From Verrucomicrobiales bacterium (GTDB lineage Bacteria; Verrucomicrobiota; Verrucomicrobiia; Verrucomicrobiales; V1-33): a DNA stretch of 64,000 bases. Each line of letters opens with the position of its first letter. Positions within the stretch are counted from its first letter, which is position 1. The translations under genes were made by a program, and so were the position numbers. This document shows positions 1,550-21,473 of the stretch, in pieces. The notes beneath the pieces were generated by a model. The model had not been told where the DNA came from and made no database searches. It saw only the letters and a program-made list of their open reading frames with translations. The stretch spans positions 124,001 through 188,000 of the forward strand of contig JAQGPJ010000012.1 in NCBI GenBank assembly GCA_028293125.1, read 5' to 3'.

Positions 1550-2332
1550 ATGAAAGTTGTTATTCTGTGTGGAGGAAAAGGAACCCGTCTCCGTGAGGAG
1601 ACGGAATACCGCCCCAAACCCATGGTGCCCATCGGGGGACGTCCGATTCTGTGGCACATCATGAAAACTTATGCCCACCACGGGCATAATGAATTCATCC
1701 TGTGCCTGGGATACAAGGGCGAGATGATCAAGGACTACTTCCGGAACTACCTTTGGAACACCTGCGACATCACCCTCAAGCTGGGCCGTCAGGGGGAGAT
1801 CGAGTGCCATCATGGCCATGATGAGGAGGACTGGTCCGTGACCCTTGCGGACACCGGGGAGAACTCCATGACCGCCTGGCGGGTGAAAGCCATTCAGCGC
1901 TACATTCCCAAGGGGGAACCCTTTCTGCTGACTTACGGCGACGGCCTCGGCACCATCGATATCAACGCCAGTATCGCCTCCCATAAAGCCTCCGGCAAAG
2001 TCTGCACTCTGACCGCCGTGCATCCCGCCGGCCGGTTCGGCGCCATCCGCATCGAGGAGGACGGCACCATCCATTCCTTCGCGGAGAAGCCTCAGTTCGA
2101 GGACACTCTGGTCAATGGGGGTTACATGGTCTGCGATCACCGCATGTTCGACTATATGCCGGACGATCCCAATGTGATGCTGGAGCGCGCGCCCATGGAC
2201 AAACTGGTGGCTGAAGGCCAGCTGAACGCCTACCGCCACCGGGGATTCTGGCAGCCCATGGACACCTATCAGGAGTCCCAGCACCTGAATCAGCTGTGGG
2301 CGGAGGGGGATGCCCCATGGAAAGTCTGGTAG
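1550..2332 (+). CDS. rfbF: Glucose-1-phosphate cytidylyltransferase
   Basis: The 260-aa protein converts CTP and glucose-1-phosphate to CDP-glucose, the first step of CDP-6-deoxyhexose synthesis. It begins with the nucleotidyltransferase loop GGKGTRLREET followed by RPKPMVPIG, and carries the RfbF signatures WHIMKTYAHHG, YKGEMIKDYF and LTYGDGLG. The length is typical of the family (about 257 aa). It starts 28 nt after the aminotransferase and is followed by CDP-glucose 4,6-dehydratase, the standard rfbF-rfbG pairing. There is no Shine-Dalgarno sequence; the leader before the ATG ends in TTTT. Confidence 0.96.
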   Translation: MKVVILCGGKGTRLREETEYRPKPMVPIGGRPILWHIMKTYAHHGHNEFILCLGYKGEMIKDYFRNYLWNTCDITLKLGRQGEIECHHGHDEEDWSVTLADTGENSMTAWRVKAIQRYIPKGEPFLLTYGDGLGTIDINASIASHKASGKVCTLTAVHPAGRFGAIRIEEDGTIHSFAEKPQFEDTLVNGGYMVCDHRMFDYMPDDPNVMLERAPMDKLVAEGQLNAYRHRGFWQPMDTYQESQHLNQLWAEGDAPWKVW

Positions 2333-2393
2333 CCGGCAGGTCTGCCAAAGGACCGGCTTCGAAAGGGACCGTCCGTCCATCCCCTTCATTCCC

Positions 2394-3518
2394 ATGTTCT
2401 CCGGCGTCTATTCAGGAAAAAAAGTGCTGCTGACAGGCCACACCGGCTTCAAGGGCGGATGGCTGGCTGAATGGCTGCTGGATCTGGGAGCGGAGGTGCA
2501 TGGATACGCTCTGGATCCGCTGCCGGAGGCGGTCCTGTTCCAGCAGTTGGGCCTTGCCGGACGGCTGGCGTCGGATCACCGCGGTGATCTCTCCGAGCTT
2601 CACAGGCTGGAGGCTCTGGTGGCGGATTTGAAACCTGATTTTGTTTTCCACCTGGCCGCCCAGCCACTGGTCAGGCTTTCCTATGAGATTCCGGTCGGAA
2701 CATTCCTCGCGAATGTCATGGGGTCCGTCCATGTGATGGAGGCGCTGAGGAAAAACGGGCATCCCTGCGCCGCCGTGATGGTCACCACGGACAAATGCTA
2801 TGAGAACCGGGAGTGGCTGCACAGCTACCGTGAGGAGGATGCCATGGGCGGGCACGATCCCTACAGCGCCAGCAAAGGCGCCGCTGAAATAGCAATCGCC
2901 TCCTACCGCCACTCCTACTTCTCCCGGCCGGGCAGCCCCGTGGCCTTGGCCAGCGCCCGGGCCGGCAATGTGATCGGCGGCGGCGACTGGGCTGCGGACC
3001 GCATCATTCCCGACTGCTTCCGGGCTCTGGCGGCGGGGCAGTCCATTCCAGTCCGGAACAAAATCGCCACCCGCCCCTGGCAGCATGTGCTGGAGCCGCT
3101 GTCCGGCTACCTGCAGCTCGCCGCCGTTCTTCACCTGTCAAAGCAGGGGAAAACGGACTTTCCCACCGGGGTCCTCAGCGGGGCTTTCAACTTCGGACCC
3201 TCCCTCTCCTCCAACCGCACCGTGGCCGCCCTTGTGCAGGAATTACTGAAACACACCGGTGGTGAATGGACGGACGTTGCCGATCCCGCCGCCGTTCACG
3301 AGGCCTCAAAGCTGAACCTCTCCACGGACAAGGCCTTCCATCTTCTGGGATGGCAACCGGTCTGGGATTTCGCGCAGACCCTTGAATGGACCGCCGCCTG
3401 GTATCTTCAGTCCCGTGATCTTCCAGCCGATTCCTCCCGTCAGGCCCTGACTTTGGAGCAGATCCATGCCTATACCGCCGCCGCGGAGGACGCGGGGCTT
3501 CCCTGGGCCGCCGCCTGA
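2394..3518 (+). CDS. rfbG: CDP-glucose 4,6-dehydratase
   Basis: The 374-aa extended SDR enzyme makes CDP-4-keto-6-deoxyglucose from CDP-glucose. The N-terminal Rossmann motif TGHTGFKGGWLAEWL is specific to RfbG, the segment VTTDKCYENREW carries the dehydratase active site, and DPYSASKGAAE supplies Tyr157 and Lys161. Start chosen at ATG 2394 because MFSGVYSGKKVLLTGHTG matches the family; an in-frame ATG at 2310 would overlap rfbF and add 28 unrelated residues. No rfbH-type 3-dehydrase is present, so a 3,6-dideoxy sugar is not the expected product; the next gene is a C-methyltransferase. Confidence 0.95.
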   Translation: MFSGVYSGKKVLLTGHTGFKGGWLAEWLLDLGAEVHGYALDPLPEAVLFQQLGLAGRLASDHRGDLSELHRLEALVADLKPDFVFHLAAQPLVRLSYEIPVGTFLANVMGSVHVMEALRKNGHPCAAVMVTTDKCYENREWLHSYREEDAMGGHDPYSASKGAAEIAIASYRHSYFSRPGSPVALASARAGNVIGGGDWAADRIIPDCFRALAAGQSIPVRNKIATRPWQHVLEPLSGYLQLAAVLHLSKQGKTDFPTGVLSGAFNFGPSLSSNRTVAALVQELLKHTGGEWTDVADPAAVHEASKLNLSTDKAFHLLGWQPVWDFAQTLEWTAAWYLQSRDLPADSSRQALTLEQIHAYTAAAEDAGLPWAAA

Positions 3519-3534
3519 GTTTTTTCCCTTCCTT

Positions 3535-4764
3535 ATGAGTTCCCTGTGTTCCTGCCGCAGCTGCGGCTCCGCGCGCCTGCATCCGTTTCTCGATCTGGGC
3601 CTGCAGCCGCTGGCCAACAATCTGCTCCGGCCGGGGGATCCATTTGACCAGGAGCCGCGCTTTCCCCTGATCGTTGCGGTCTGCCAGGACTGCTGGCTGG
3701 TGCAGATCACCGAGACTGTGCCTCCGGTCACTCTGTTTGAGGAGTATCTGTATTTCTCCTCCTTCTCCGACGCCATGCTCCGGCATGCCAAAGCCGCCGT
3801 GGAGCACCACATTCCGGAATGCGAACTGGATGCGGGGAGCTTCGTGGTGGAGATCGCCAGCAATGATGGCTATCTGCTGAAAAACTTCGTGGCCGCTGAC
3901 ATCCCATGCTTGGGCGTGGAGCCGGCAAGGAACATCGCCGTGGTTGCGGAGCAGGCCGGAGTGCCCACCTTCTGCGGGTTCTTCGGGGAAAGGACAGCCG
4001 GTCAACTGCGGGCGGAGCACGGCCCGGCGGATTTGATTCTGGGCAATAATGTTTTTGCCCATGCTCCGGACATCAATGACTTTATAGCCGGCATGGCTGT
4101 TCTGCTGAAAGAGGATGGGCGGGTGGTGGTGGAGTTTCCCTATCTCGGGAATTTCATCGATCATCTGGAATTTGACACGGTCTACCACGAGCACGTTTTT
4201 TATTTCTCCGTCACCGCTCTCAGGCCCGCCTTTGAACGGCATGGATTGGAAATCTTTGACGCTGAGAAGGTGGATATCCACGGCGGCTCTCTGCGCCTGT
4301 CCGCAGGCCGTGCGGGACGCCATGCCGTTGCTCCACGGCTGACAGCCCTGGTGGAGGATGAAAATGCTGCGAGGATGACGACGCTGCCGTATTATGAGAA
4401 CTTCGCACGCCGGGTGGAAGTCCTCAAAACCCGGCTGCAGGAGCTGCTTGGGAAGCTGAAGGAGGAAGGCAAAACCATCGCCGCCTACGGTGCCTCCGCC
4501 AAGGGCAGCACCCTGCTCAACTACTTCGGCATCGGGCGGGAGACACTCGATTTTGTGGTGGACCGCAGCACCTACAAGCAGGGCCGCCTGACTCCCGGCA
4601 CACACCTCTCCATTGAGGCGCCGGAAAAGCTGTTGGAGCGCCGTCCGGATTTCACCCTTCTGCTTACTTGGAACTTCGCCGCTGAAATCCTGCGCCAGCA
4701 GGAGGCCTACACGGAAGCCGGCGGCAGGTTTATCATTCCGCTGCCGGAGCCGCGGATCGTCTGA
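3535..4764 (+). CDS. SAM-dependent sugar C-methyltransferase (TylCIII-like)
   Basis: The 409-aa protein has the three-part layout of NDP-hexose C-methyltransferases: an N-terminal zinc-binding module (CSCRSCGS near residues 5-12, then CQDC near residue 50), a central class I SAM domain (VVEIASNDGYLLKNF, then GVEPARNIA), and a C-terminal Rossmann-like domain with AYGASAKGSTLLNYFGI. Enzymes of this family add a methyl group to C3 of 4-keto-6-deoxy sugars. It lies 16 nt after rfbG and before an RmlC-like epimerase, so CDP-4-keto-6-deoxyglucose is the natural candidate substrate. Methylation position and product are inference. Confidence 0.88.
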   Translation: MSSLCSCRSCGSARLHPFLDLGLQPLANNLLRPGDPFDQEPRFPLIVAVCQDCWLVQITETVPPVTLFEEYLYFSSFSDAMLRHAKAAVEHHIPECELDAGSFVVEIASNDGYLLKNFVAADIPCLGVEPARNIAVVAEQAGVPTFCGFFGERTAGQLRAEHGPADLILGNNVFAHAPDINDFIAGMAVLLKEDGRVVVEFPYLGNFIDHLEFDTVYHEHVFYFSVTALRPAFERHGLEIFDAEKVDIHGGSLRLSAGRAGRHAVAPRLTALVEDENAARMTTLPYYENFARRVEVLKTRLQELLGKLKEEGKTIAAYGASAKGSTLLNYFGIGRETLDFVVDRSTYKQGRLTPGTHLSIEAPEKLLERRPDFTLLLTWNFAAEILRQQEAYTEAGGRFIIPLPEPRIV

Positions 4765-4799: not shown

Positions 4800-5333
4800 A
4801 TGGACATCAAGCCCGCAGGATTTCAAGGGGTCCACACGCTCACTTCCGTCAAAAGAGGGGATGAGCGGGGATACCTGATCCGCACCCAGTGCTCGGAAAC
4901 TTTTGCCGGCGCCGGCCTGAACGACCGCTGGGCGCAGAGCAGCATCACCTATTCGGCGCTCCGGGGAACTTTGCGCGGGATGCATTTCCAGACCGAGCCC
5001 TTCGGGGAGATCAAACTGATCCGGTGCGTCACCGGGGCGGTGTGGGATTGCCTGGTGGATATCCGGCCCGGCTCGCCCACGTATGGCCAATGGGAGGCTT
5101 TTGAGCTGAGCGAGGAGAACGGCGCCGCGCTGTATGTGCCGGCAGGCATCGCTCACGGTTTTTACACCCTCACTCCGGAGGTGAGGATGCTTTACTCCAT
5201 GTCCGCTCCCTATTCCGCGCCGCATGCCTCCGGCATCCGCTGGGATGATCCGGATGTGGCCATCGCCTGGCCTGGAGCTCCGGCGGTTCTGTCGGAGCGC
5301 GACGCCACGTGGCCAACCCTGTCCGGACGATGA
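4800..5333 (+). CDS. RmlC-like NDP-4-keto-6-deoxyhexose 3,5-epimerase family protein
   Basis: The 177-aa cupin belongs to the dTDP-4-dehydrorhamnose 3,5-epimerase family. Visible motifs are GTLRGMHFQ with the catalytic His, IKLIRCVTGAVWDCLVDIR, YVPAGIAHGF and GIRWDDPDVAIAW. Family members epimerise C3 and/or C5 of 4-keto-6-deoxy sugars. With rfbF/rfbG and a C-methyltransferase next door, and no rmlA/rmlB in view, the substrate is more likely a CDP-linked (3-C-methyl) 4-keto sugar than dTDP-rhamnose precursor. The stop overlaps the start of the next gene in an ATGA motif. Confidence 0.9.
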   Translation: MDIKPAGFQGVHTLTSVKRGDERGYLIRTQCSETFAGAGLNDRWAQSSITYSALRGTLRGMHFQTEPFGEIKLIRCVTGAVWDCLVDIRPGSPTYGQWEAFELSEENGAALYVPAGIAHGFYTLTPEVRMLYSMSAPYSAPHASGIRWDDPDVAIAWPGAPAVLSERDATWPTLSGR

Positions 5334-6241
5334 AAATCCTGATGACGGGCGCCAGCGGGTTCATCGGCTCCGCCGCGCTTTCCCTGGCTGTCTCCAAAGG
5401 GCATGACGTCACCGTCCTGGCCAGGCCCGGCAGCGCTGCGGGATACCGGGAAAAGCTGGAGCGTGGCGGCATGTCATGCGAGGTGATTGCGGCGGAGCAC
5501 ACGGGATGGGCCGCCGCCGTGCAAAACAGAAATTTCGACTCCTGCCTGCATCTCGCCTGGATCGCCGTCCCGGGGCAGTATCTGAACAGTCCTGAGAATG
5601 AGCAGTTCGCGGCATCCACTCTGGCTTTCGCGGACAGCCTTTTCAAAAACGGACTGCCACATTTTCTGGGTGCAGGCACCTGCATCGAATACGCGCCCGG
5701 ACTGACCGCCCCCTGCCGGGAGGACATCACTCCCTGCGCCCCTGTGTCCCCCTATGCGATAGCCAAACACCGCACGCATCAGTCGCTGGCGGAAATGGCG
5801 GACCGGTATTCATCCGCGCTGGGCTGGGCACGTGTTTTTTACCCTTATGGGGCGGGGGAGCATCCTGGCCGCACCGCCACCACGTTTCTGAAAACCTTGG
5901 CGGCAGGACAGCCCCTCGTGCTTAAAACGGGAGCCTCCCGCAAGGACTTCATTGAGGTCCGGGATGTGGCTTCGGCTCTGGTTCATCTGCTTGGGTGTGG
6001 GGCCGGGGGAGCATTCAATATCGGCACCGGGACCGGCACCGGTATCCGTGAGCTTGCTCTGATAACCGCCGGCTTGGTGGGTGCTGACGGATCCATGGTC
6101 CAGGATGCCGATCCTCCCGCAGTGGATCCGTATGCTTTTCATGTTGCGGACACCACCCGGCTTTCCGCTGCCGGCTGGCAGCCAGCCATTCCTTTAAAAA
6201 CCGGTTTGGGGCACCTGCTGCAGGCTCTCGGCCAAAGCTGA
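5330..6241 (+). CDS. NAD-dependent epimerase/dehydratase family protein (probable 4-ketoreductase)
   Basis: The 303-aa extended SDR has the N-terminal nucleotide motif GASGFIGSAAL, the catalytic Tyr/Lys pair in SPYAIAKHRTH, and a C-terminal substrate region typical of NDP-sugar reductases and epimerases (GAFNIGTGTGTGIREL). The ATG at 5330 overlaps the epimerase stop by 4 nt, so the two genes are probably translationally coupled; an in-frame GTG-type start at 5309 is less likely. As last gene of the rfbF/rfbG/methyltransferase/epimerase block it is the expected 4-keto reductase that completes the CDP-sugar. Product stereochemistry is unknown. Confidence 0.88.
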   Translation: MKILMTGASGFIGSAALSLAVSKGHDVTVLARPGSAAGYREKLERGGMSCEVIAAEHTGWAAAVQNRNFDSCLHLAWIAVPGQYLNSPENEQFAASTLAFADSLFKNGLPHFLGAGTCIEYAPGLTAPCREDITPCAPVSPYAIAKHRTHQSLAEMADRYSSALGWARVFYPYGAGEHPGRTATTFLKTLAAGQPLVLKTGASRKDFIEVRDVASALVHLLGCGAGGAFNIGTGTGTGIRELALITAGLVGADGSMVQDADPPAVDPYAFHVADTTRLSAAGWQPAIPLKTGLGHLLQALGQS

Positions 6242-12284: not shown

Positions 12285-13268
12285 ATGATCATTACCAAGA
12301 CACCTTTCAGAGCCTCCTTTGCCGGGGGCGGCACGGATCTCCCGGCCTTCTATGAAAAGGAGGATGGGATGGTTGTGTCCATGGCCATCAACAGTTTTGT
12401 GTATCTGGCGGTGCATCGGTTTTTCGAGAACCGGATCGTGCTGAAGTATTCGGAGACGGAATCCGTGGAGCATGTGGATCAGATCCGGCATGGGCTGATC
12501 CGTGAATGCCTGAAAATCGTGGGAGTGAGCGAGCCGCTGGAGATCACCTCCTTTGCCGATATTCCCTCCAGGGGAAGCGGGCTGGGATCATCCTCTGCCT
12601 TCGCGGTGGGACTGATATCCGCTCTCCAGGCATTCAAGGGACTGCCGGTGTCGCCGGAGCGGAGCGCGCATCTGGCCTGCGAGGTGGAGATCGGGCGGCT
12701 TGGGGAACCGATTGGAAAACAAGACCAGTACGCGGCGGCCTACGGAGGACTGAACACCATCACCTTCCGCGCCGACGGCACGGTTAATGTGGAGCCCATC
12801 ACGCTGGAGGACGAAGCCCGGCGCCACATGGAGGAGCATCTGGTGATGTTTTACACCGGATTGGTGCGTAGCGCCTCCGAGATTTTGTCCGAGCAGAAAA
12901 AGGCGACGGAATCCGACAAGGACAAGTTTGCCCTGCTGCGCGATATGAAAAGTCTGGCGGTGCACCTGCGGGATGAATTGCAAAAAGGGCATGTGGACCG
13001 GCTGGGACCTCTGATGCACGAGGGGTGGCTGATGAAAAAGGGACTTGCCGCCAAAATATCCCTTCCGGAGATTGACGCCGCCTATGAGGCGGCCATGCAG
13101 GCCGGTGCCACGGGCGGGAAACTGCTGGGGGCCGGCGGCGGCGGATTTCTGCTTTTCTACTGTCCGCCATCCAAGCGGGCGGAACTGATGAGGCGGCTGG
13201 CTCCGCTGCGGGCAGTCCCGATCCGCATGGAGCTGCGCGGCTCGCGGGTCGCCTTTCTCGAGTCCTGA
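12285..13268 (+). CDS. hddA: D-glycero-alpha-D-manno-heptose 7-phosphate kinase (GHMP kinase)
   Basis: The 327-aa protein matches HddA: TPFRASFAGGGTDLPAFY at the N-terminus, the GHMP ATP loop SRGSGLGSSSAFAVGL near residues 100-115, GKQDQYAAAYGGLN, and the C-terminal glycine-rich motif GGKLLGAGGGGFLLF. HddA phosphorylates D-glycero-alpha-D-manno-heptose 7-phosphate at C1 to give the 1,7-bisphosphate, the step that commits heptose to the GDP route. Within 4 kb downstream are the guanylyltransferase-phosphatase fusion and gmhA, giving all four activities of the pathway. Confidence 0.93.
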   Translation: MIITKTPFRASFAGGGTDLPAFYEKEDGMVVSMAINSFVYLAVHRFFENRIVLKYSETESVEHVDQIRHGLIRECLKIVGVSEPLEITSFADIPSRGSGLGSSSAFAVGLISALQAFKGLPVSPERSAHLACEVEIGRLGEPIGKQDQYAAAYGGLNTITFRADGTVNVEPITLEDEARRHMEEHLVMFYTGLVRSASEILSEQKKATESDKDKFALLRDMKSLAVHLRDELQKGHVDRLGPLMHEGWLMKKGLAAKISLPEIDAAYEAAMQAGATGGKLLGAGGGGFLLFYCPPSKRAELMRRLAPLRAVPIRMELRGSRVAFLES

Positions 13269-13289
13269 GAAATCAGCGTATTTATTTTC

Positions 13290-14237
13290 ATGAAACACGT
13301 TTTGATCACCGGGGGAGCCGGATTTATCGGAAGCAATCTCGCCATCCGGCTGGTGAGGGAAAAAGGCTGCCAAGTCACCATTTACGACAACCTGCGGACT
13401 GGGAGCCTGGCCAATCTGGAGGAGGTCCGGCACAACCCGCTGCTGGATTTCCAGGAGGGGGACATTTTGGATTTGCCGAAGCTTAGTGACACCATGAAGG
13501 GGGTGGACACCGTCTTCCATTTGGCGGCAAACGCGGATGTGCGCGGCGGTCAGAGCAACCGCAGGATCGATCTGGACCAGAATACGGTGGGAACATGGAA
13601 TGTGCTGGAGGCCTGTCGGGTGAATCAAGTGGCCCGGTATTTCTTTGCTTCCTCAGCTACGGTGTATGGCGAGCCGGATATCTTCCCGACGCCGGAGACG
13701 ATGCCCCTCATCCAGACCTCCGTGTATGGAGCCTCCAAGCTGGCGGGCGAGGCCATGGCCCAGGCTTATTCGGAGTATGACGACATGCAGGTGGTGATTT
13801 TCCGCTTTGTCTCATGGACGGGCCCCAGCTATTCCCATGGGGTGGTGCGTGATTTCTGCGGCAAGCTGAAGCAGAATCCCGGGTGTCTGCACATCCTGGG
13901 GGACGGCACTCAGAAGAAGTCATTTCTGGATGTGAGGGATGGCATCAACGGGCTCCTGCATGCCGCGGACCACGGTACGGGGCGGGTGCAGATTTACAAT
14001 GTCGGCCATGATGAATGGGTGAACGTGAACGAGGTGGCGGAAACCGTGGTGGATGCCCTGGGGCTGACCGGTGTGCAGTTCGATTACGGCGGCGGGGAGC
14101 GGGGATGGAAGGGCGACAGCCCTCTGGTGCTGCTGGACACCACCCGTCTGAAGTCGCTGGGGTGGAGCGCCGGCATCGGTATTCTGCAAAGCATCCGGGA
14201 CACGGTGCAGTCACTGAAAAAAGCCGGGCTGGCCTGA
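13290..14237 (+). CDS. NAD-dependent epimerase/dehydratase family protein (GalE-like SDR)
   Basis: The 315-aa extended SDR has ITGGAGFIGSNLAIRL at the N-terminus, FHLAANADVRGGQ, the catalytic FASSATVYGEPD and Tyr146/Lys150 in SVYGASKLAGEA, all typical of UDP-glucose 4-epimerase-like enzymes. It sits inside the GDP-heptose cassette, between hddA and the hddC-gmhB fusion, with 21-nt and 63-nt gaps. That position suggests it modifies a heptose nucleotide (for example C4 epimerisation), but the family also includes UDP-hexose epimerases and the substrate cannot be read from sequence. Confidence 0.88.
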   Translation: MKHVLITGGAGFIGSNLAIRLVREKGCQVTIYDNLRTGSLANLEEVRHNPLLDFQEGDILDLPKLSDTMKGVDTVFHLAANADVRGGQSNRRIDLDQNTVGTWNVLEACRVNQVARYFFASSATVYGEPDIFPTPETMPLIQTSVYGASKLAGEAMAQAYSEYDDMQVVIFRFVSWTGPSYSHGVVRDFCGKLKQNPGCLHILGDGTQKKSFLDVRDGINGLLHAADHGTGRVQIYNVGHDEWVNVNEVAETVVDALGLTGVQFDYGGGERGWKGDSPLVLLDTTRLKSLGWSAGIGILQSIRDTVQSLKKAGLA

Positions 14238-14300
14238 GCATGGCCGTGCCATTTTCAGATCACCGGTCATGATGGGCTTTTTAATCAGATTTCCCATATC

Positions 14301-15626
14301 GTGAGACAGGCCGTTATTCTCTGTGGTGGCAAAGGAACCCGTTTGGGTGCCGATTTTTCCCATCTGCCGAAGCCACTGGTGCCGGTGGATGGCATTCCTC
14401 TCCTGGACCGCATTCTGGGTGTGGCGGCGGAGGCCGGGATAAAGGAGGTGATTCTGGCGGCAGGGCATCTGGGCCACCTCATTGCGGAAAGGTATCAGGC
14501 GGTGAATCCCTGGAGACTGAATATCCGCACGCACGTTGAGAAAACTCCTCTCGGAACCGCCGGCTGCCTGCTGGAGATATCGGATCAGCTGGATGAGCAC
14601 TTCGCGCTGCTCTACGGGGATATCTTTCTGGATTTTGATCTGGCAGGTCTGATCCGCCGGCATGAGACTTTTCTTCCGGATGCCACCGTGCTGGTCCGGC
14701 AATCCGACCATCCGGCGGATTCTGATTTGGTGGATGTGGACCTGGCCACCGGGGAGGTGCGGGCCTTTCTTCCCAAAGCCACCCGTGATCCCGCCGGACT
14801 TTACCGGAACTGCGGCAATGCCGCCGTCTATTGCTGCTCCCGCCGCCTGCTGGCCGCCGTGCCGCAGGGGAGGCCGAGCGATATCGCCACCGATGTGTTT
14901 CCCGCCCTGCTGGCGGAGGGAGGCCGCATCCGGGCCTGCTGGCTGGAGGACACCGGTTATGTCAAGGACGTGGGCACCCCGGCCCGTCTGGTGGAGGTGG
15001 AGCGCTATTGGCGCCGCCGTCAGCTGGCCAGAGCCGCGGCGGCGGCTCCCCGCAGAGTGCGGGCGGTGATCCTTGACCGGGATGGGGTGATTGTGGAAAA
15101 CCGGGAGCCGCTGGCCGAGGTGGCGCATATGACCTTTCTGCCCGGCGCGCTGGAGGGCCTGCGTCTTATGAATGAGGACGGGCTGGCCTGCTTTGTGGCC
15201 ACCAACCAGCCATGGATTGCCCGTGGCCTCCTGACGGAGGAGCAGATGACAGCGGTGCATGGACAGCTTTTGACGGCGGTGAACCAGGCGGGTGGCGGCA
15301 TCAGGGCCATCGCCCACAGTCCCTATCATCCGGAGACCCACCACGGTGAGGGCATTCCCGGGCTGCGCCGGGCCTCGGAATGCCGCAAGCCCCGGCCCGG
15401 CATGCTGTTTGCCCTGATGGAGGAGCATGGATTCCTGCCTGATGAAACGGTCATGGTGGGGGATTCTCCCGCGGATATCACCGCCGGGAAAAACGCCGGA
15501 GTAAGGACCGTTCTGATCCGCCCGGCAAGTGCCGGCGGCAGTCTGGAGACCATCGCCTCCATGGCGGACGCCACAGTGGAGGATCTTCAGTCCGCAGCCG
15601 CTGTCATCCGGACCTGGAGCCGTTGA
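14301..15626 (+). CDS. hddC-gmhB: Fusion: heptose 1-phosphate guanylyltransferase plus heptose 1,7-bisphosphate phosphatase
   Basis: A 441-aa two-domain protein. Residues 1 to about 235 form a sugar nucleotidyltransferase (ILCGGKGTRLGADF, LPKPLVPVDGIPLLDRIL, PLGTAGCLLE, LLYGDIFLDFD) like HddC. After a linker (RAAAAAPRRVRA), residues from about 253 form a HAD phosphatase like GmhB: LDRDGVIVENREPL, FVATNQPWIARG, CRKPRPGM and MVGDSPADI. The enzyme would carry out the last two steps of the pathway: 1,7-bisphosphate to 1-phosphate, then GDP transfer. The GmhB zinc loop is altered: the usual CPHH is SPYH and the Cys-x-Cys before RKP is SEC. The start is GTG at 14301. An alternative donor nucleotide cannot be excluded. 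Confidence 0.9.
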   Translation: MRQAVILCGGKGTRLGADFSHLPKPLVPVDGIPLLDRILGVAAEAGIKEVILAAGHLGHLIAERYQAVNPWRLNIRTHVEKTPLGTAGCLLEISDQLDEHFALLYGDIFLDFDLAGLIRRHETFLPDATVLVRQSDHPADSDLVDVDLATGEVRAFLPKATRDPAGLYRNCGNAAVYCCSRRLLAAVPQGRPSDIATDVFPALLAEGGRIRACWLEDTGYVKDVGTPARLVEVERYWRRRQLARAAAAAPRRVRAVILDRDGVIVENREPLAEVAHMTFLPGALEGLRLMNEDGLACFVATNQPWIARGLLTEEQMTAVHGQLLTAVNQAGGGIRAIAHSPYHPETHHGEGIPGLRRASECRKPRPGMLFALMEEHGFLPDETVMVGDSPADITAGKNAGVRTVLIRPASAGGSLETIASMADATVEDLQSAAAVIRTWSR

Positions 15627-15640
15627 TTGAACCGCTTTTT

Positions 15641-16228
15641 ATGTCAGAATCCCCCCACCCCTTTGAAGAATACCTGACGCGGCTCCGGACCGCGCTGGAC
15701 GGCCTCTGCCGGGAGTCCATGGACGCCGCCGTGGACGTGCTAATGGCCTGCTACCACGCCGGCGGCAGCGTATACGTCATGGGCAATGGCGGCTCCGCCT
15801 CCACCGCCACCCACATGGCCTGCGATTTGTCCAAGGGGCCAACCCCTCCGGGACGGCAGGGACTGGTTGTCTGGTCGCTGACGGACAACCCGGCGCTGCT
15901 GACCGCCATCGCGAACGATCTGGCCTATGACGAGATTTTTGCCCAGCCCATCCTGAGCCGCATGCGGCCCGATGATGTGCTGATCGCTGTCTCCGCCAGT
16001 GGAAATTCCCCCAATCTGATCAAAGGCATCAAGGCCGCCAGGCAGAAGGGATGCCGGATCATTGCCCTGACAGGATTCCAAGGGGGATATCTGAAGGACA
16101 ACTCCGACATCGTCCTTCATGCCACGGAATCAACCTACGGTCCGGTGGAGGATGCCCATCTGATCATCAATCACTATTTTGTTGAGGCAGTGAAAAACCG
16201 CCTCGCCACCGAGGCCCGGCCTTTTTAA
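15641..16228 (+). CDS. gmhA: Sedoheptulose 7-phosphate isomerase
   Basis: The 195-aa SIS-domain protein converts sedoheptulose 7-phosphate to D-glycero-D-manno-heptose 7-phosphate, the entry step to activated heptoses. Visible signatures are VYVMGNGGSASTATHMACDL, the sugar-phosphate loop VSASGNSPNLIKGIKAA, and a C-terminal helix with DAHLIINHYFVEAVK containing the active-site His. ATG 15641 is chosen; an in-frame TTG at 15623 would overlap the previous stop. It closes the heptose cassette. The 260 nt that follow (16229-16488) are AT-rich and hold no supportable gene, only a 32-codon reading frame. Confidence 0.94.
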   Translation: MSESPHPFEEYLTRLRTALDGLCRESMDAAVDVLMACYHAGGSVYVMGNGGSASTATHMACDLSKGPTPPGRQGLVVWSLTDNPALLTAIANDLAYDEIFAQPILSRMRPDDVLIAVSASGNSPNLIKGIKAARQKGCRIIALTGFQGGYLKDNSDIVLHATESTYGPVEDAHLIINHYFVEAVKNRLATEARPF

Positions 16229-16488
16229 TTCCGGCAAGGACAGCACGACGATGCATCCATCCTTCATAAAAATGTCCTGGCTGCGGAATGATTATGGAGA
16301 TTCAAAGCTTCAGGATGAAAATAAAATCAAAGGGATGGCGTGTTCATAAATACAAAAAACCTTGAGATGCCGGGAGCCTGGACTGCGTATGGGGCTCATT
16401 TTATCATTTGCCCTGCAATGACCAAGGCAGGCGGTCATTTGTGCAGCCACAAACTGCTGCGAATGCCCTGCGATTTTAAAATCCTGTG

Positions 16489-17595
16489 ATGAAAGAGGCA
16501 CGCCCTGTCTTCTGGCTGCCAGGCCACCCCATTATGTCCGGAACGTCGATGCTCCGGTACTGGTATTTCATGCAGGAGGCGGCGGACCGGACCGGGGATT
16601 TTCAGGCAGGCTGTATTCTTGGAAGGCCTGAGACCATCACCGGAGGCAAAAAGGTTGGCCGTCTGCGGAAAGCCTTTATCAAATACCTCGGTTATCCGCT
16701 GATGGCCCGTAAATCCCCGGCCGGAGCCATTCATCACATTCTGGATCACTCCTGGGCCCACTTGGTGCGGATGCTGCCTAAAAATTCACCCCGCATCGTC
16801 ACGGTTCATGATCTGATTCCTCTGCGGTTTCATGATGGACTCACCAAAGCCCAGGTGGAGCGCTACCGGCATGTCATTGGGAATGTGAGGCACTGTGACG
16901 CTGTCATTGCGGATTCCGCCTACACGAAATCGGAAATTCAGCATTTTTTCGGTCTGAAGGAGGAATTGATTCATGTGGTGCCTCTCGGGGTCAATCCTGT
17001 TGCCCTCAAGGCAGCATCGGCAGTGGAGGGAAGGATTGCCGGCATCGTGGCGGAGGCGCGGCGGGGTGGCGGGCAACTGATGGTGGGGTGTCTGGGTTCT
17101 CCTCTGGGGCGTAAAAATCTGTCTCTGCTGGCCCAGGCAGTGGAACGTTTGCGCCAACGCAAGTATCCGGTGGTCATTGTAAAAGCCGGACCTCCGGCGT
17201 CAGGCGCTGCCGCTGCCCCCTTCCAAAAATTACAATTCGAAGGGGGGCTGATCGATCTGGGGTTCATCAGTGATGCGGAAGTGGGTGATTTTTTCGGCAG
17301 CATTGATGCGCTCTGCATGCCCTCCCTTTACGAAGGCTTCGGGTTGCCCGTTATTGAAGCCATGGCGGCCGGAGTGCCGGTCGTTTGCAGCGGCGTCACC
17401 AGTCTTCCGGAAGTCGCGGGAGATGCGGCATTGCTGTTTGATCCCCATTCGGTGGAGGCTTTGGAGGAAAAACTCGGAAAACTGTTTGACCCGCAAATCC
17501 GTGCGGATTTGGGCCGCCGCGGTTTGAAACGCTCCGCGGATTTCACCTGGGACGCCACTTTGGCGAAATGCCGTGAAATATATCAGCAGTTCTGA
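16489..17595 (+). CDS. Glycosyltransferase family 4
   Basis: The 368-aa GT-B protein carries the GT4 signature in its C-terminal domain: MPSLYEGFGLPVIEAMAAGV with E-x7-E, VVCSGVTSLPEVAGDAALLF, and LGSPLGRKNLSLLAQAV for nucleotide binding. The N-terminal half contains IVTVHDLIPLRFHD, as found in many mannosyl- and rhamnosyltransferases. ATG 16489 is used; a GTG one codon earlier is possible. It is separated from gmhA by 260 nt and so may have its own promoter. The donor sugar is unknown. Confidence 0.9.
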   Translation: MKEARPVFWLPGHPIMSGTSMLRYWYFMQEAADRTGDFQAGCILGRPETITGGKKVGRLRKAFIKYLGYPLMARKSPAGAIHHILDHSWAHLVRMLPKNSPRIVTVHDLIPLRFHDGLTKAQVERYRHVIGNVRHCDAVIADSAYTKSEIQHFFGLKEELIHVVPLGVNPVALKAASAVEGRIAGIVAEARRGGGQLMVGCLGSPLGRKNLSLLAQAVERLRQRKYPVVIVKAGPPASGAAAAPFQKLQFEGGLIDLGFISDAEVGDFFGSIDALCMPSLYEGFGLPVIEAMAAGVPVVCSGVTSLPEVAGDAALLFDPHSVEALEEKLGKLFDPQIRADLGRRGLKRSADFTWDATLAKCREIYQQF

Positions 17596-19501: not shown

Positions 19502-20449
19502 ATGAAATCCGCCCTCGTTACCGGAGCCAATGGCCAGGATGGCATTCTGCTGAGCCGGTATCTCCTGACACTGGGATACAAAGTTTATGGCACTGTGCGC
19601 GGAAAGGACCGGGAAGTGGAGAGGGGCGTGCAGCGGCATGTGATCACAGAAGCCACGCTGACTGTCTGGGAGGAACTGATGGCCCAAGTGACTCCTGATG
19701 AGATTTACCTGCTGGGAGCCGACAGCTTTGCGGGCATGCCGCTGAATGGCGTGTCCGAGATGCTGGAAAGCAATGTGATGCTGATGGCGCATCAGCTGGA
19801 GGCAGCTTCGCGCTCAGTGCCGGGAGCACGCGTGTTCGCTGCAGGCAGCGCGGCGGTTTTCGGGGATCCAAGCTCCCTGCCGCAGACGGAGACGACTCCC
19901 CGTCTGCCAACCTCCCTGTATGGATCCTGCAAGGCGCTGCTGCATCCTCTGGCGGATCTTGGCCGGCGCAGCGGGCAGTTTGTCTCCATTGGGATGCTTT
20001 TCAACCACGAGAGCCTCCTGCGTCCTGAGCGTTTTGTGACCCGTAAAATCACCTCCACTGCTGCGCGGATCGCAGCCGGTTCCACGGAAAAACTGAAGCT
20101 GGGTAATCTGGATGTGGTGCGGGACTGGGGGCATGCCGAGGATTACGTGAAGGCCATGCACCTTATTCTGCAGGCCGGGGAGGCGGATGACTGGGTGATC
20201 GCCACCGGGGAGGGGCATACCGTCCGGGAGTTCTGCCAGATGGTTTTTGAATCTCTGGGACTGAATTACTTGGACCACGTTCTGTCAGTGCCGGAATTCT
20301 GGCGCCCTGCGGAGAAGGTGCCGCTGATCGGGGATTCCAGCCGTCTCATGACACGGCTTGGGTGGCGGCGGGAGAAAAGTTTCACGGCTCTGATGGAGGA
20401 GATGGTGGCGCATGATGTGCAGCTGGCCCGCTCCGGCCATGGGATCTGA
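19502..20449 (+). CDS. GDP-mannose 4,6-dehydratase family protein lacking the catalytic Glu
   Basis: The 315-aa protein is clearly of the Gmd family: TGANGQDGILLSRYLL, TPDEIYLLGADSF, the diagnostic GMLFNHESLLRPERFVTRKI, LGNLDVVRDWGHAEDYVKAM, VIATGEGHTVREF and FWRPAEKVPLIGDSSRL. Tyr140 and Lys144 (SLYGSCK) are kept. However, the Gmd motif Thr-Ser-Glu before (L/M)(Y/F)G is here Ser116-Ala117-Ala118 in AAGSAAVFG, so the Glu that acts at C5 in dehydration is missing, and AAQSHV is replaced by GADSFA. It is also shorter than typical Gmd (about 340-370 aa). It may therefore be a GDP-sugar (GDP-heptose) reductase or epimerase rather than a dehydratase. Confidence 0.85.
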   Translation: MKSALVTGANGQDGILLSRYLLTLGYKVYGTVRGKDREVERGVQRHVITEATLTVWEELMAQVTPDEIYLLGADSFAGMPLNGVSEMLESNVMLMAHQLEAASRSVPGARVFAAGSAAVFGDPSSLPQTETTPRLPTSLYGSCKALLHPLADLGRRSGQFVSIGMLFNHESLLRPERFVTRKITSTAARIAAGSTEKLKLGNLDVVRDWGHAEDYVKAMHLILQAGEADDWVIATGEGHTVREFCQMVFESLGLNYLDHVLSVPEFWRPAEKVPLIGDSSRLMTRLGWRREKSFTALMEEMVAHDVQLARSGHGI

Positions 20450-20476: not shown

Positions 20477-20788
20477 GTGAAATTGAAAGCCCTGTTGAAA
20501 AAGTGGGGCCTGAGCGCGCTGCGGGCAGTGTGCGGCGTGAATCTGGTGGACCAGCGCACCGGCGAGAAGCTGGGGCGGGTGGTGGTGGTGCGCTGGCGGG
20601 GACGGCTGATGATGATCGGTTTTGACGGGGCGGCGGTTTATCCGCATTTCATGCCGCAGACCCGCGAGACCTATTGGGGACAGGAGCTCGGGTTCTCCAC
20701 CCATCCCCCCCCGGATTTTCCCCATGTTGCAAACGGCCATCGTCCTCATCACCCATCAGAGTCCGCCGGAAGTGGCGGCCATGGCTGA
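20477..20788 (+). CDS. Small hypothetical protein
   Basis: A 103-codon frame starting at GTG 20477, 27 nt after the Gmd-like gene, preceded by CCAGGA. The product has a basic N-terminus (KLKALLKKWG), then NLVDQRTGEKLGRVVVVRWRG and YPHFMPQTRETYWGQELGF; codon usage is like that of neighbouring genes. Its last 22 codons overlap the start of the next gene in a different frame, so the annotated C-terminus may be run-on after a lesion or the overlap may be genuine. No family is recognised. It may be a small polysaccharide-locus protein. Confidence 0.5.
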   Translation: MKLKALLKKWGLSALRAVCGVNLVDQRTGEKLGRVVVVRWRGRLMMIGFDGAAVYPHFMPQTRETYWGQELGFSTHPPPDFPHVANGHRPHHPSESAGSGGHG

Positions 20789-21473
20789 AACGTGGCAGCG
20801 ACTGAATCCCGGAGCCCGCGTGCACATCGCCTATGGCGGCACGCGGGAGCGGTTCGCGGAACTCGGTTGGCTGGATCGCACGTTCATTGACGACCCCCGG
20901 CTCCGGACCCGGGACCATCAGCGGGACCGGCAATCCTACTTGGGCCTGATGCGGGAGGTGGCGGTGGATCTGCAGCCGCTGCGGCTAGACCGCGTCCTCA
21001 TGGCCGAGTGCGATGTCATGCCGCTGCGGGCGGGCCTTGTGGATTATCTGGAGAAACGCCGGCGGGAGGAGGGCGCCGATCTGCTGGGACCGCGCATCCG
21101 GCGGGTGGATGGAACCGGACATCCCCACTATTTGGCCCATCAATCCCATCCGGCCTTTGGTCGGTGGCTGGCACAGTCCGCAAGAGCGGAGAAGGGGACC
21201 GTTCTCATGATGGTGGGCTGTCTGACTTGGTGGACTTGGAAGGCTTTTTCGGCGGTGTCGGAGACGGTTGAACCGATGCCGGTTTACTTGGAGCTGGCCA
21301 TTCCCACGGCGGCGCATCAGTTGGGATTCCGTGTTCGTGAACTCACGGAGCTGAACGGGTTTCTTCAGCCACTGGGCGAGATGCAGCCGCACTTGGCGGC
21401 ATGGCAGGCCGCCGGCCACTGGGTGGCGCATCCATGCAAGAAAATTTGGAGGCAGAACAACAGCCCAACCTGA
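20724..21473 (+). CDS. Hypothetical protein, possibly glycosyltransferase-like
   Basis: A 249-aa protein from ATG 20724 (an upstream in-frame start at 20622 lies inside the previous gene). It starts TAIVLITHQSPPEVAAMAET, a beta-alpha start like that of GT-A enzymes, and contains RVLMAECDVMPLRAG, where ECD could act as a D-x-D-like metal site. Downstream are LLGPRIRRVDGTG and a Trp-rich segment LTWWTWKAF. It is the last gene of the polysaccharide locus and is followed by a strong terminator. The enzymatic role is a guess from position and the N-terminal pattern. Confidence 0.68.
   Translation: MLQTAIVLITHQSPPEVAAMAETWQRLNPGARVHIAYGGTRERFAELGWLDRTFIDDPRLRTRDHQRDRQSYLGLMREVAVDLQPLRLDRVLMAECDVMPLRAGLVDYLEKRRREEGADLLGPRIRRVDGTGHPHYLAHQSHPAFGRWLAQSARAEKGTVLMMVGCLTWWTWKAFSAVSETVEPMPVYLELAIPTAAHQLGFRVRELTELNGFLQPLGEMQPHLAAWQAAGHWVAHPCKKIWRQNNSPT

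Follow-up and report, generated by a model that had tools for sequence, protein, structure and literature searches.

GDP-mannose 4,6-dehydratase (Gmd) uses bound NADP+ to oxidize the C4 of its substrate, then eliminates water from C5/C6, aided by a Glu residue, and finally returns the hydride to C6. Its motif has been defined as [ST]SE..Yx3K, in which one Glu is the sole additional catalytic residue, and the pattern of the non-dehydrating GalE as [ST]..Yx3K (PMC8987622, a review of nucleotide-sugar dehydratases). Some intact Gmds, e.g. that of P. aeruginosa, reduce their own 4-keto product to GDP-D-rhamnose (PMC3584063); these bifunctional enzymes use for C4 reduction the same scaffold as the protein considered here, but retain the Glu and dehydrate too. 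A similar logic of dehydratase plus C4-reductase acting on a GDP-sugar is found in DmhA/DmhB and in the GDP-heptose dehydratase and C4-reductases of C. jejuni (7us5; PMC10680097). The RMD enzymes (2pk3, 6x3b) share with our protein the SDR fold and the reaction that we propose for it.

This protein is encoded in a stretch of 64,000 nucleotides from a Verrucomicrobiales bacterium (contig JAQGPJ010000012.1), hereafter called the window. With moderate confidence, we consider it a C4-ketoreductase that arose from Gmd and acts on GDP-4-keto-6-deoxymannose, most likely producing GDP-D-rhamnose. The original prediction was of a non-dehydratase acting as a reductase or 4-epimerase on a GDP-sugar, of which loss of dehydration and C4 reduction are the best supported parts and 4-epimerization is less likely. 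The reading of C4 reduction is favoured because the Glu is lost across the lineage, the YxxxK dyad is kept, the gene is under purifying selection and most carriers have an adjacent intact gmd.

A Gmd-family protein without the dehydratase Glu

The ORF starts with ATG and runs for 315 codons before its stop, giving a protein of 315 amino acids. Its features are listed below, conservation referring to an alignment of 54 family members (A3).

19502..20449, + strand: Gmd-family extended SDR (PF16363) without the dehydratase Glu; predicted GDP-4-keto-6-deoxymannose C4-reductase
19523..19543, + strand: GxxGxxG dinucleotide-binding motif, G8-A-N-G-Q-D-G14; G8, G11, Q12, D13 and G14 invariant
19847..19855, + strand: S116-A117-A118 replacing [ST]-S-E; A118 at the position of the dehydratase Glu
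19919..19933, + strand: Y140xxxK144 catalytic dyad, kept; invariant
20003..20014, + strand: N168-H169-E170-S171 Gmd block, kept; H169, E170 and S171 invariant, N168 nearly so
20033..20050, + strand: F178-V-T-R-K-I183 Gmd block, kept
20120..20149, + strand: R207-D-W-G-H-A-E-D-Y-V216 Gmd block, kept

The protein belongs to the Gmd superfamily, matching PF16363 over residues 5-301 with 237.9 bits against a gathering threshold of 27. Among solved structures it is closest to eleven sequences of GDP-mannose 4,6-dehydratases (best 1rpn, E=1e-58), and its homology with Gmds such as 1rpn, 1n7g and 2z1m extends over the whole length at about 40% identity, with the NHES, FVTRKI and RDWG blocks, the YxxxK dyad and the GxxGxxG motif in common. 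The Gmd blocks (NHES, FVTRKI, RDWGHAEDYV) and Tyr140/Lys144 that had been reported as kept are indeed all present in the translated ORF. However, the protein scores 213.6 bits in the GDP-mannose 4,6-dehydratase equivalog TIGR01472, about half of the curated cut-off of 415, whereas the intact copies in carrier genomes reach 503-576 bits; besides the altered catalytic motif, it has lost the Gmd-conserved residues V77, T87, R137, N153 and E156. Its match to RMD is much weaker than that to Gmd (67 bits to 2pk3 and 38 to 6x3b vs 202 to 1rpn), placing RMD in another branch of the SDR superfamily, and the GalE model TIGR01179 gives 32 bits against a cut-off of 262.3 bits. Membership of the RMD, Fcl or GalE families is ruled out by such scores.

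The Thr-Ser-Glu of Gmd had initially been described as replaced by Ser-Ala-Ala; the position of the Glu is occupied by A118, as stated, but Ser116 is permitted by [ST]SE and the change concerns only the following Ser (at position 117) and the Glu. The role then given to this Glu, abstraction of the C5 proton, needs adjusting, since in human GMD the residue is the acid directly and the base via a water (Table 1 and text of PMC8987622). The loss is due neither to chance nor to misalignment, because the GMDs of the PDB align without gaps through the motif, the Glu is present in 42 of the 42 canonical Gmd-like sequences of A3 and the same-genus orthologues, about 62% identical to the window protein, have Ser-Ala-Val at this position. 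Moreover, comparison of the window gene with these orthologues gives a dN/dS of 0.24-0.27, and comparison among the latter one of 0.13-0.18; the Glu-less state is therefore maintained in a gene under selection, rather than in a decaying copy. A pseudogene is ruled out by these values together with the intact frame in relatives. The resulting sequence, SxxYx3K, has the GalE-type [ST]..Yx3K pattern and matches the non-dehydrating NS-SDRs in Table 1 of the review (PMC8987622).

The AlphaFold2 model of the protein (mean pLDDT 95.1) superposes best on GMDs, with Z 38-41, and nearly as well on the RMD 2pk3, with Z 39.6, a result that fits either reaction and does not discriminate between functions. 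In this fold the loop that contains Asp74 borders the active site, and Asp74 could in principle provide acidic help; it is conserved in the window lineage, being kept in the three full-length sequences of the same genus, whose canonical counterparts nearly always have Gln, Met or Ser at this position. Since the motifs of the substrate pocket are also intact, one may imagine that the protein is a dehydratase still, with Asp74 or a water network standing in for the Glu. We regard this as very improbable, given that no canonical Gmd in our alignment lacks the Glu and that relatives already have an intact gmd next to the gene. Also against it counts that in RmlB the residue after HLAA is a Glu, yet this is not the dehydratase acid of RmlB.

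The Glu-less clade and its pairing with intact gmd

Among 162 family sequences gathered by genome and contig searches, the Glu is absent in 14, some being copies of one gene. About ten of these Glu-less proteins, from five phyla, cluster together with support of 92/80 in our careful tree, and a quick tree of 83 rows concurs on this clade (SH-aLRT 96). Within it, the window protein, its two orthologues and a Ser-Ala-Cys protein of the Alphaproteobacterium Robiginitomaculum form an inner group (98/89). Six proteins with Ser-Ser-His/Tyr/Phe/Arg, from Planctomycetota, Verrucomicrobiota, Bdellovibrionota and Nocardia, are joined to this group at 92/80; the deeper join appears less sure than the inner group because several branches are long.

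Three further proteins lie outside the main clade and look like separate changes, namely L114 (Ser-Ser-Asp), the archaeal L135 (Ser-Ser-Ala) and P0005 (Ser-Ser-Gln); the last is a Gmd-like protein of genome G451 (L185:1501-2433, minus strand), with an intact gmd some 6 kb away. When a Glu-less profile (A2) was run against 387 genomes, with the five best candidates per genome scored, it gave no separation from canonical Gmds. No further close copy of the Robiginitomaculum protein was found in 137 genomes of the family of this organism, other matches being 37-39% identical. Searches of an open-access library turned up no account of Glu-less Gmd reductases, which is weak evidence of novelty as most subscription papers were outside its scope.

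In most genomes of the clade the Glu-less gene lies at most about 2.5 kb from an intact gmd. Two genomes of the same genus as the window, G001 and G003, have a canonical gmd with Glu directly upstream of the Glu-less orthologue on the same strand, that of G003 scoring 508 bits in TIGR01472 (cut-off 415). The Robiginitomaculum locus (L071) shows the order glycosyltransferase, gmd (1368-2351), Glu-less gene (2359-3279), glycosyltransferase, and its gmd shares 75% identity with the G003 gene. The G003 cluster contains homologues of both glycosyltransferases of this locus (36-37%), and the window contains a homologue of one:

16486..17595, + strand: GT4 glycosyltransferase; 47% identical to its homologue in the G003 cluster, 34% to that directly beside the Glu-less gene in L071

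Although their hosts belong to different phyla, L071 and G001/G003 have partner gmd copies that form sister branches (100/98), and the corresponding Glu-less copies also group together (98/89); the pair has therefore moved together.

Elsewhere, in several phyla, a C-methyltransferase (PF08421/PF08484) stands between the two genes, in the order gmd - C-methyltransferase - Glu-less, as found in L065:863-4187 (where the methyltransferase was recognised by eye), L081:5408-8624, L137:8956-12222 (L137/L139) and L138:1316-4569; in L030:7890-10182 the C-methyltransferase precedes the Glu-less gene and gmd is about 2 kb away. The module looks like a route to a C-methyl-branched GDP-6-deoxyhexose, for which a reductase is the missing step after methylation of the 4-keto sugar. 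In Nocardia the module has as a neighbour a long ORF with the look of a polyketide synthase.

The frequency of linkage is biased upward by L065, L081, L137 and L138, which were fetched via canonical gmd; where the Glu-less gene was itself the point of entry (six loci), gmd is linked in four (G001, G003, L071 and G074) but not in the window and L119. Of 11 carrier genomes, 10 contain a single gmd that exceeds the curated cut-off; the eleventh is 68% complete. The sole intact gmd in the window's own genome is unlinked, on contig C108, beside fcl. Fcl (GDP-fucose synthase) was undetected in G001, G450, G452, G453, G454 and G455, where gmd adjoins the Glu-less gene, and the Glu-less protein is therefore the nearest candidate user of the Gmd product in these six genomes. 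A GDP-fucose synthase frame beside gmd in G451 (L207, G451:C13:710238-711155) has one internal TAA stop, and may be broken or contain a sequencing error.

The linkage bears on two other readings of the protein. One is that it is a non-catalytic partner or regulatory pseudo-enzyme of Gmd, e.g. a subunit of mixed tetramers, as might be suggested by the direct contact of the genes in several genomes and by the oligomeric nature of Gmd (PMC3584063). We find this highly improbable, because Tyr140, Lys144, the dinucleotide-binding glycines and the substrate blocks are invariant or nearly so across a wide clade, and because in the window and L119 the gene has no gmd linked to it. The other reading is a GDP-sugar 4-epimerase, for instance converting GDP-mannose to GDP-talose with tightly bound NAD(P)+ as in GalE, in line with the SxxYx3K pattern and with a fold near that of 4-epimerases (Z about 36). 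However, a gmd partner consumes GDP-mannose irreversibly, which indicates a step after dehydration, and a 4-epimerase would be unexpected beside gmd or after a C-methyltransferase; we thus hold this activity to be quite unlikely.

GDP-heptose genes and the choice of substrate

The window also contains genes of GDP-heptose type, like those of the C. jejuni systems:

12285..16228, + strand: HddA-like kinase, GalE-like SDR, nucleotidyltransferase-GmhB fusion and GmhA-like isomerase; GDP-heptose-type neighbours that the Glu-less enzyme does not require elsewhere

The names HddA-, GmhA- and GmhB-like and nucleotidyltransferase, in the window as in G003, are best-hit assignments under the curated cut-offs. 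The fused gene (14301-15626) joins a sugar-1-phosphate nucleotidyltransferase to a GmhB-type HAD phosphatase, and in it the Man1P guanylyltransferase model outscores HddC, both being under cut-off. The GalE-like SDR at 13290-14237 (SSATVYG) lies between hddA- and hddC-like genes, is 76% identical in G003 and has 8rdg/8rdi as the nearest solved structures; it could be a C4-dehydrogenase or an epimerase on GDP-heptose.

On the basis of such neighbours, GDP-manno-heptose or a keto derivative of it had been put forward as the substrate of the Glu-less enzyme. A GDP-heptose pathway, with GDP-4-keto-heptose as the predicted substrate of C4 reduction, would agree with the sharing of one cluster by hddA-, GmhA- and GmhB-like genes and a non-dehydratase SDR in both the window and G003, with the known routes of C4-dehydrogenase plus C4-reductase on GDP-heptose (PMC10680097) and with the lack of a GDP-sugar dehydratase in the window cluster. 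Yet hdd genes neighbour the Glu-less gene only in the window and G003, and GDP-heptose synthesis genes are not its constant company: HddA was undetected in seven of the ten other carrier genomes, namely the same-genus G001 as well as G450, G451, G452, G454, G455 and G074, with the Robiginitomaculum genome among these seven, and also in an eighth, G002, which is only 68% complete. Carrier G453 has a distant HddA homologue (42%), and G004, of the same genus, has an HddA-like kinase without the Glu-less gene. The partner gmd speaks against heptose as well, since the partner protein scores 432 bits to the GDP-mannose dehydratase 1n7g vs 96 to the GDP-heptose dehydratase 7us5, which is a distant branch also from the window protein (21% identity in structure); the gmd adjoining the orthologue is thus of GDP-mannose type by every comparison made. 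Furthermore, a Cj1427-like role of the SDR at 13290 would be putative, its closest solved structures being those of GalE-like SDRs. GDP-heptose as the general substrate is unsupported by the scores of the partner Gmd and the distribution of HddA, and we judge the heptose pathway unlikely; a role in it that is specific to the window may be entertained because no gmd is linked there. A hexose substrate is the better-supported general reading.

Predicted C4 reduction and its meaning

Following the preferred reading, C4 reduction of a GDP-hexose, one copy of Gmd would have lost its acid/base Glu, with the pocket for GDP-mannose, the binding site for NADP(H) and the dyad of Tyr and Lys all retained. 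Elimination would then fail, and hydride transfer at C4, which needs only Tyr, Lys and cofactor, would persist. Given NADPH, which we infer to be the cofactor, the enzyme would reduce the C4 ketone of GDP-4-keto-6-deoxy-D-mannose supplied by intact Gmd. If the mode of binding is kept, the hydride would be delivered to the face from which Gmd takes it, and microscopic reversibility of the C4 step of Gmd would lead to the manno configuration, i.e. to GDP-D-rhamnose. Since some intact Gmds (e.g. in P. aeruginosa) are already capable of reducing what they produce, a dedicated reductase lies one catalytic loss away from its ancestor. GDP-D-rhamnose could then be the donor for the neighbouring GT4 glycosyltransferase, and in the organism of the window it is the unlinked gmd on C108 that would have to supply the keto-sugar.

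Extended to the whole clade, this suggests a widespread and distinct family of dedicated C4-ketoreductases, derived from Gmd by loss of the dehydratase Glu and acting on the product of intact Gmd, a proposal to which we give an even chance. In one branch, GDP-D-rhamnose or its 4-epimer would arise by a route independent of the RMD family, and the other, with the gmd - C-methyltransferase - Glu-less order, would reduce a C-methyl-branched GDP-4-keto sugar. If so, the loss of one catalytic group has turned a dehydratase into a reductase, providing a natural experiment on the division of labour within Gmd, and the members of the family become candidates for the reductase step towards GDP-linked 6-deoxy and C-methyl-branched sugars. 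In the literature on virenose, only the known RMD, bifunctional GMD or GMER types have been proposed for the reductase step (PMC3539893). The Glu-less proteins are also a trap for annotation, as homology would name them Gmd although dehydration is not expected.

Two other genes occupy the same order after the Glu-less gene in its relatives:

20477..20788, + strand: small ORF directly 3' of the Glu-less gene; frame start conserved in relatives; no Pfam match
20622..21473, + strand: conserved protein with neither a known family nor a Pfam match; 59-64% identity in relatives; start codon probably further in

Near the beginning of the window, between 358 and 6241, an aminotransferase gene is followed by a CDP-glucose-type pathway:

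1550-2332: nucleotidyltransferase
2310-3518: RfbG-like 4,6-dehydratase
3466-4764: C-methyltransferase
4800-5333: RfbC-like epimerase
5309-6241: SDR reductase

By its composition, this gene set would be as for a branched CDP-deoxysugar.
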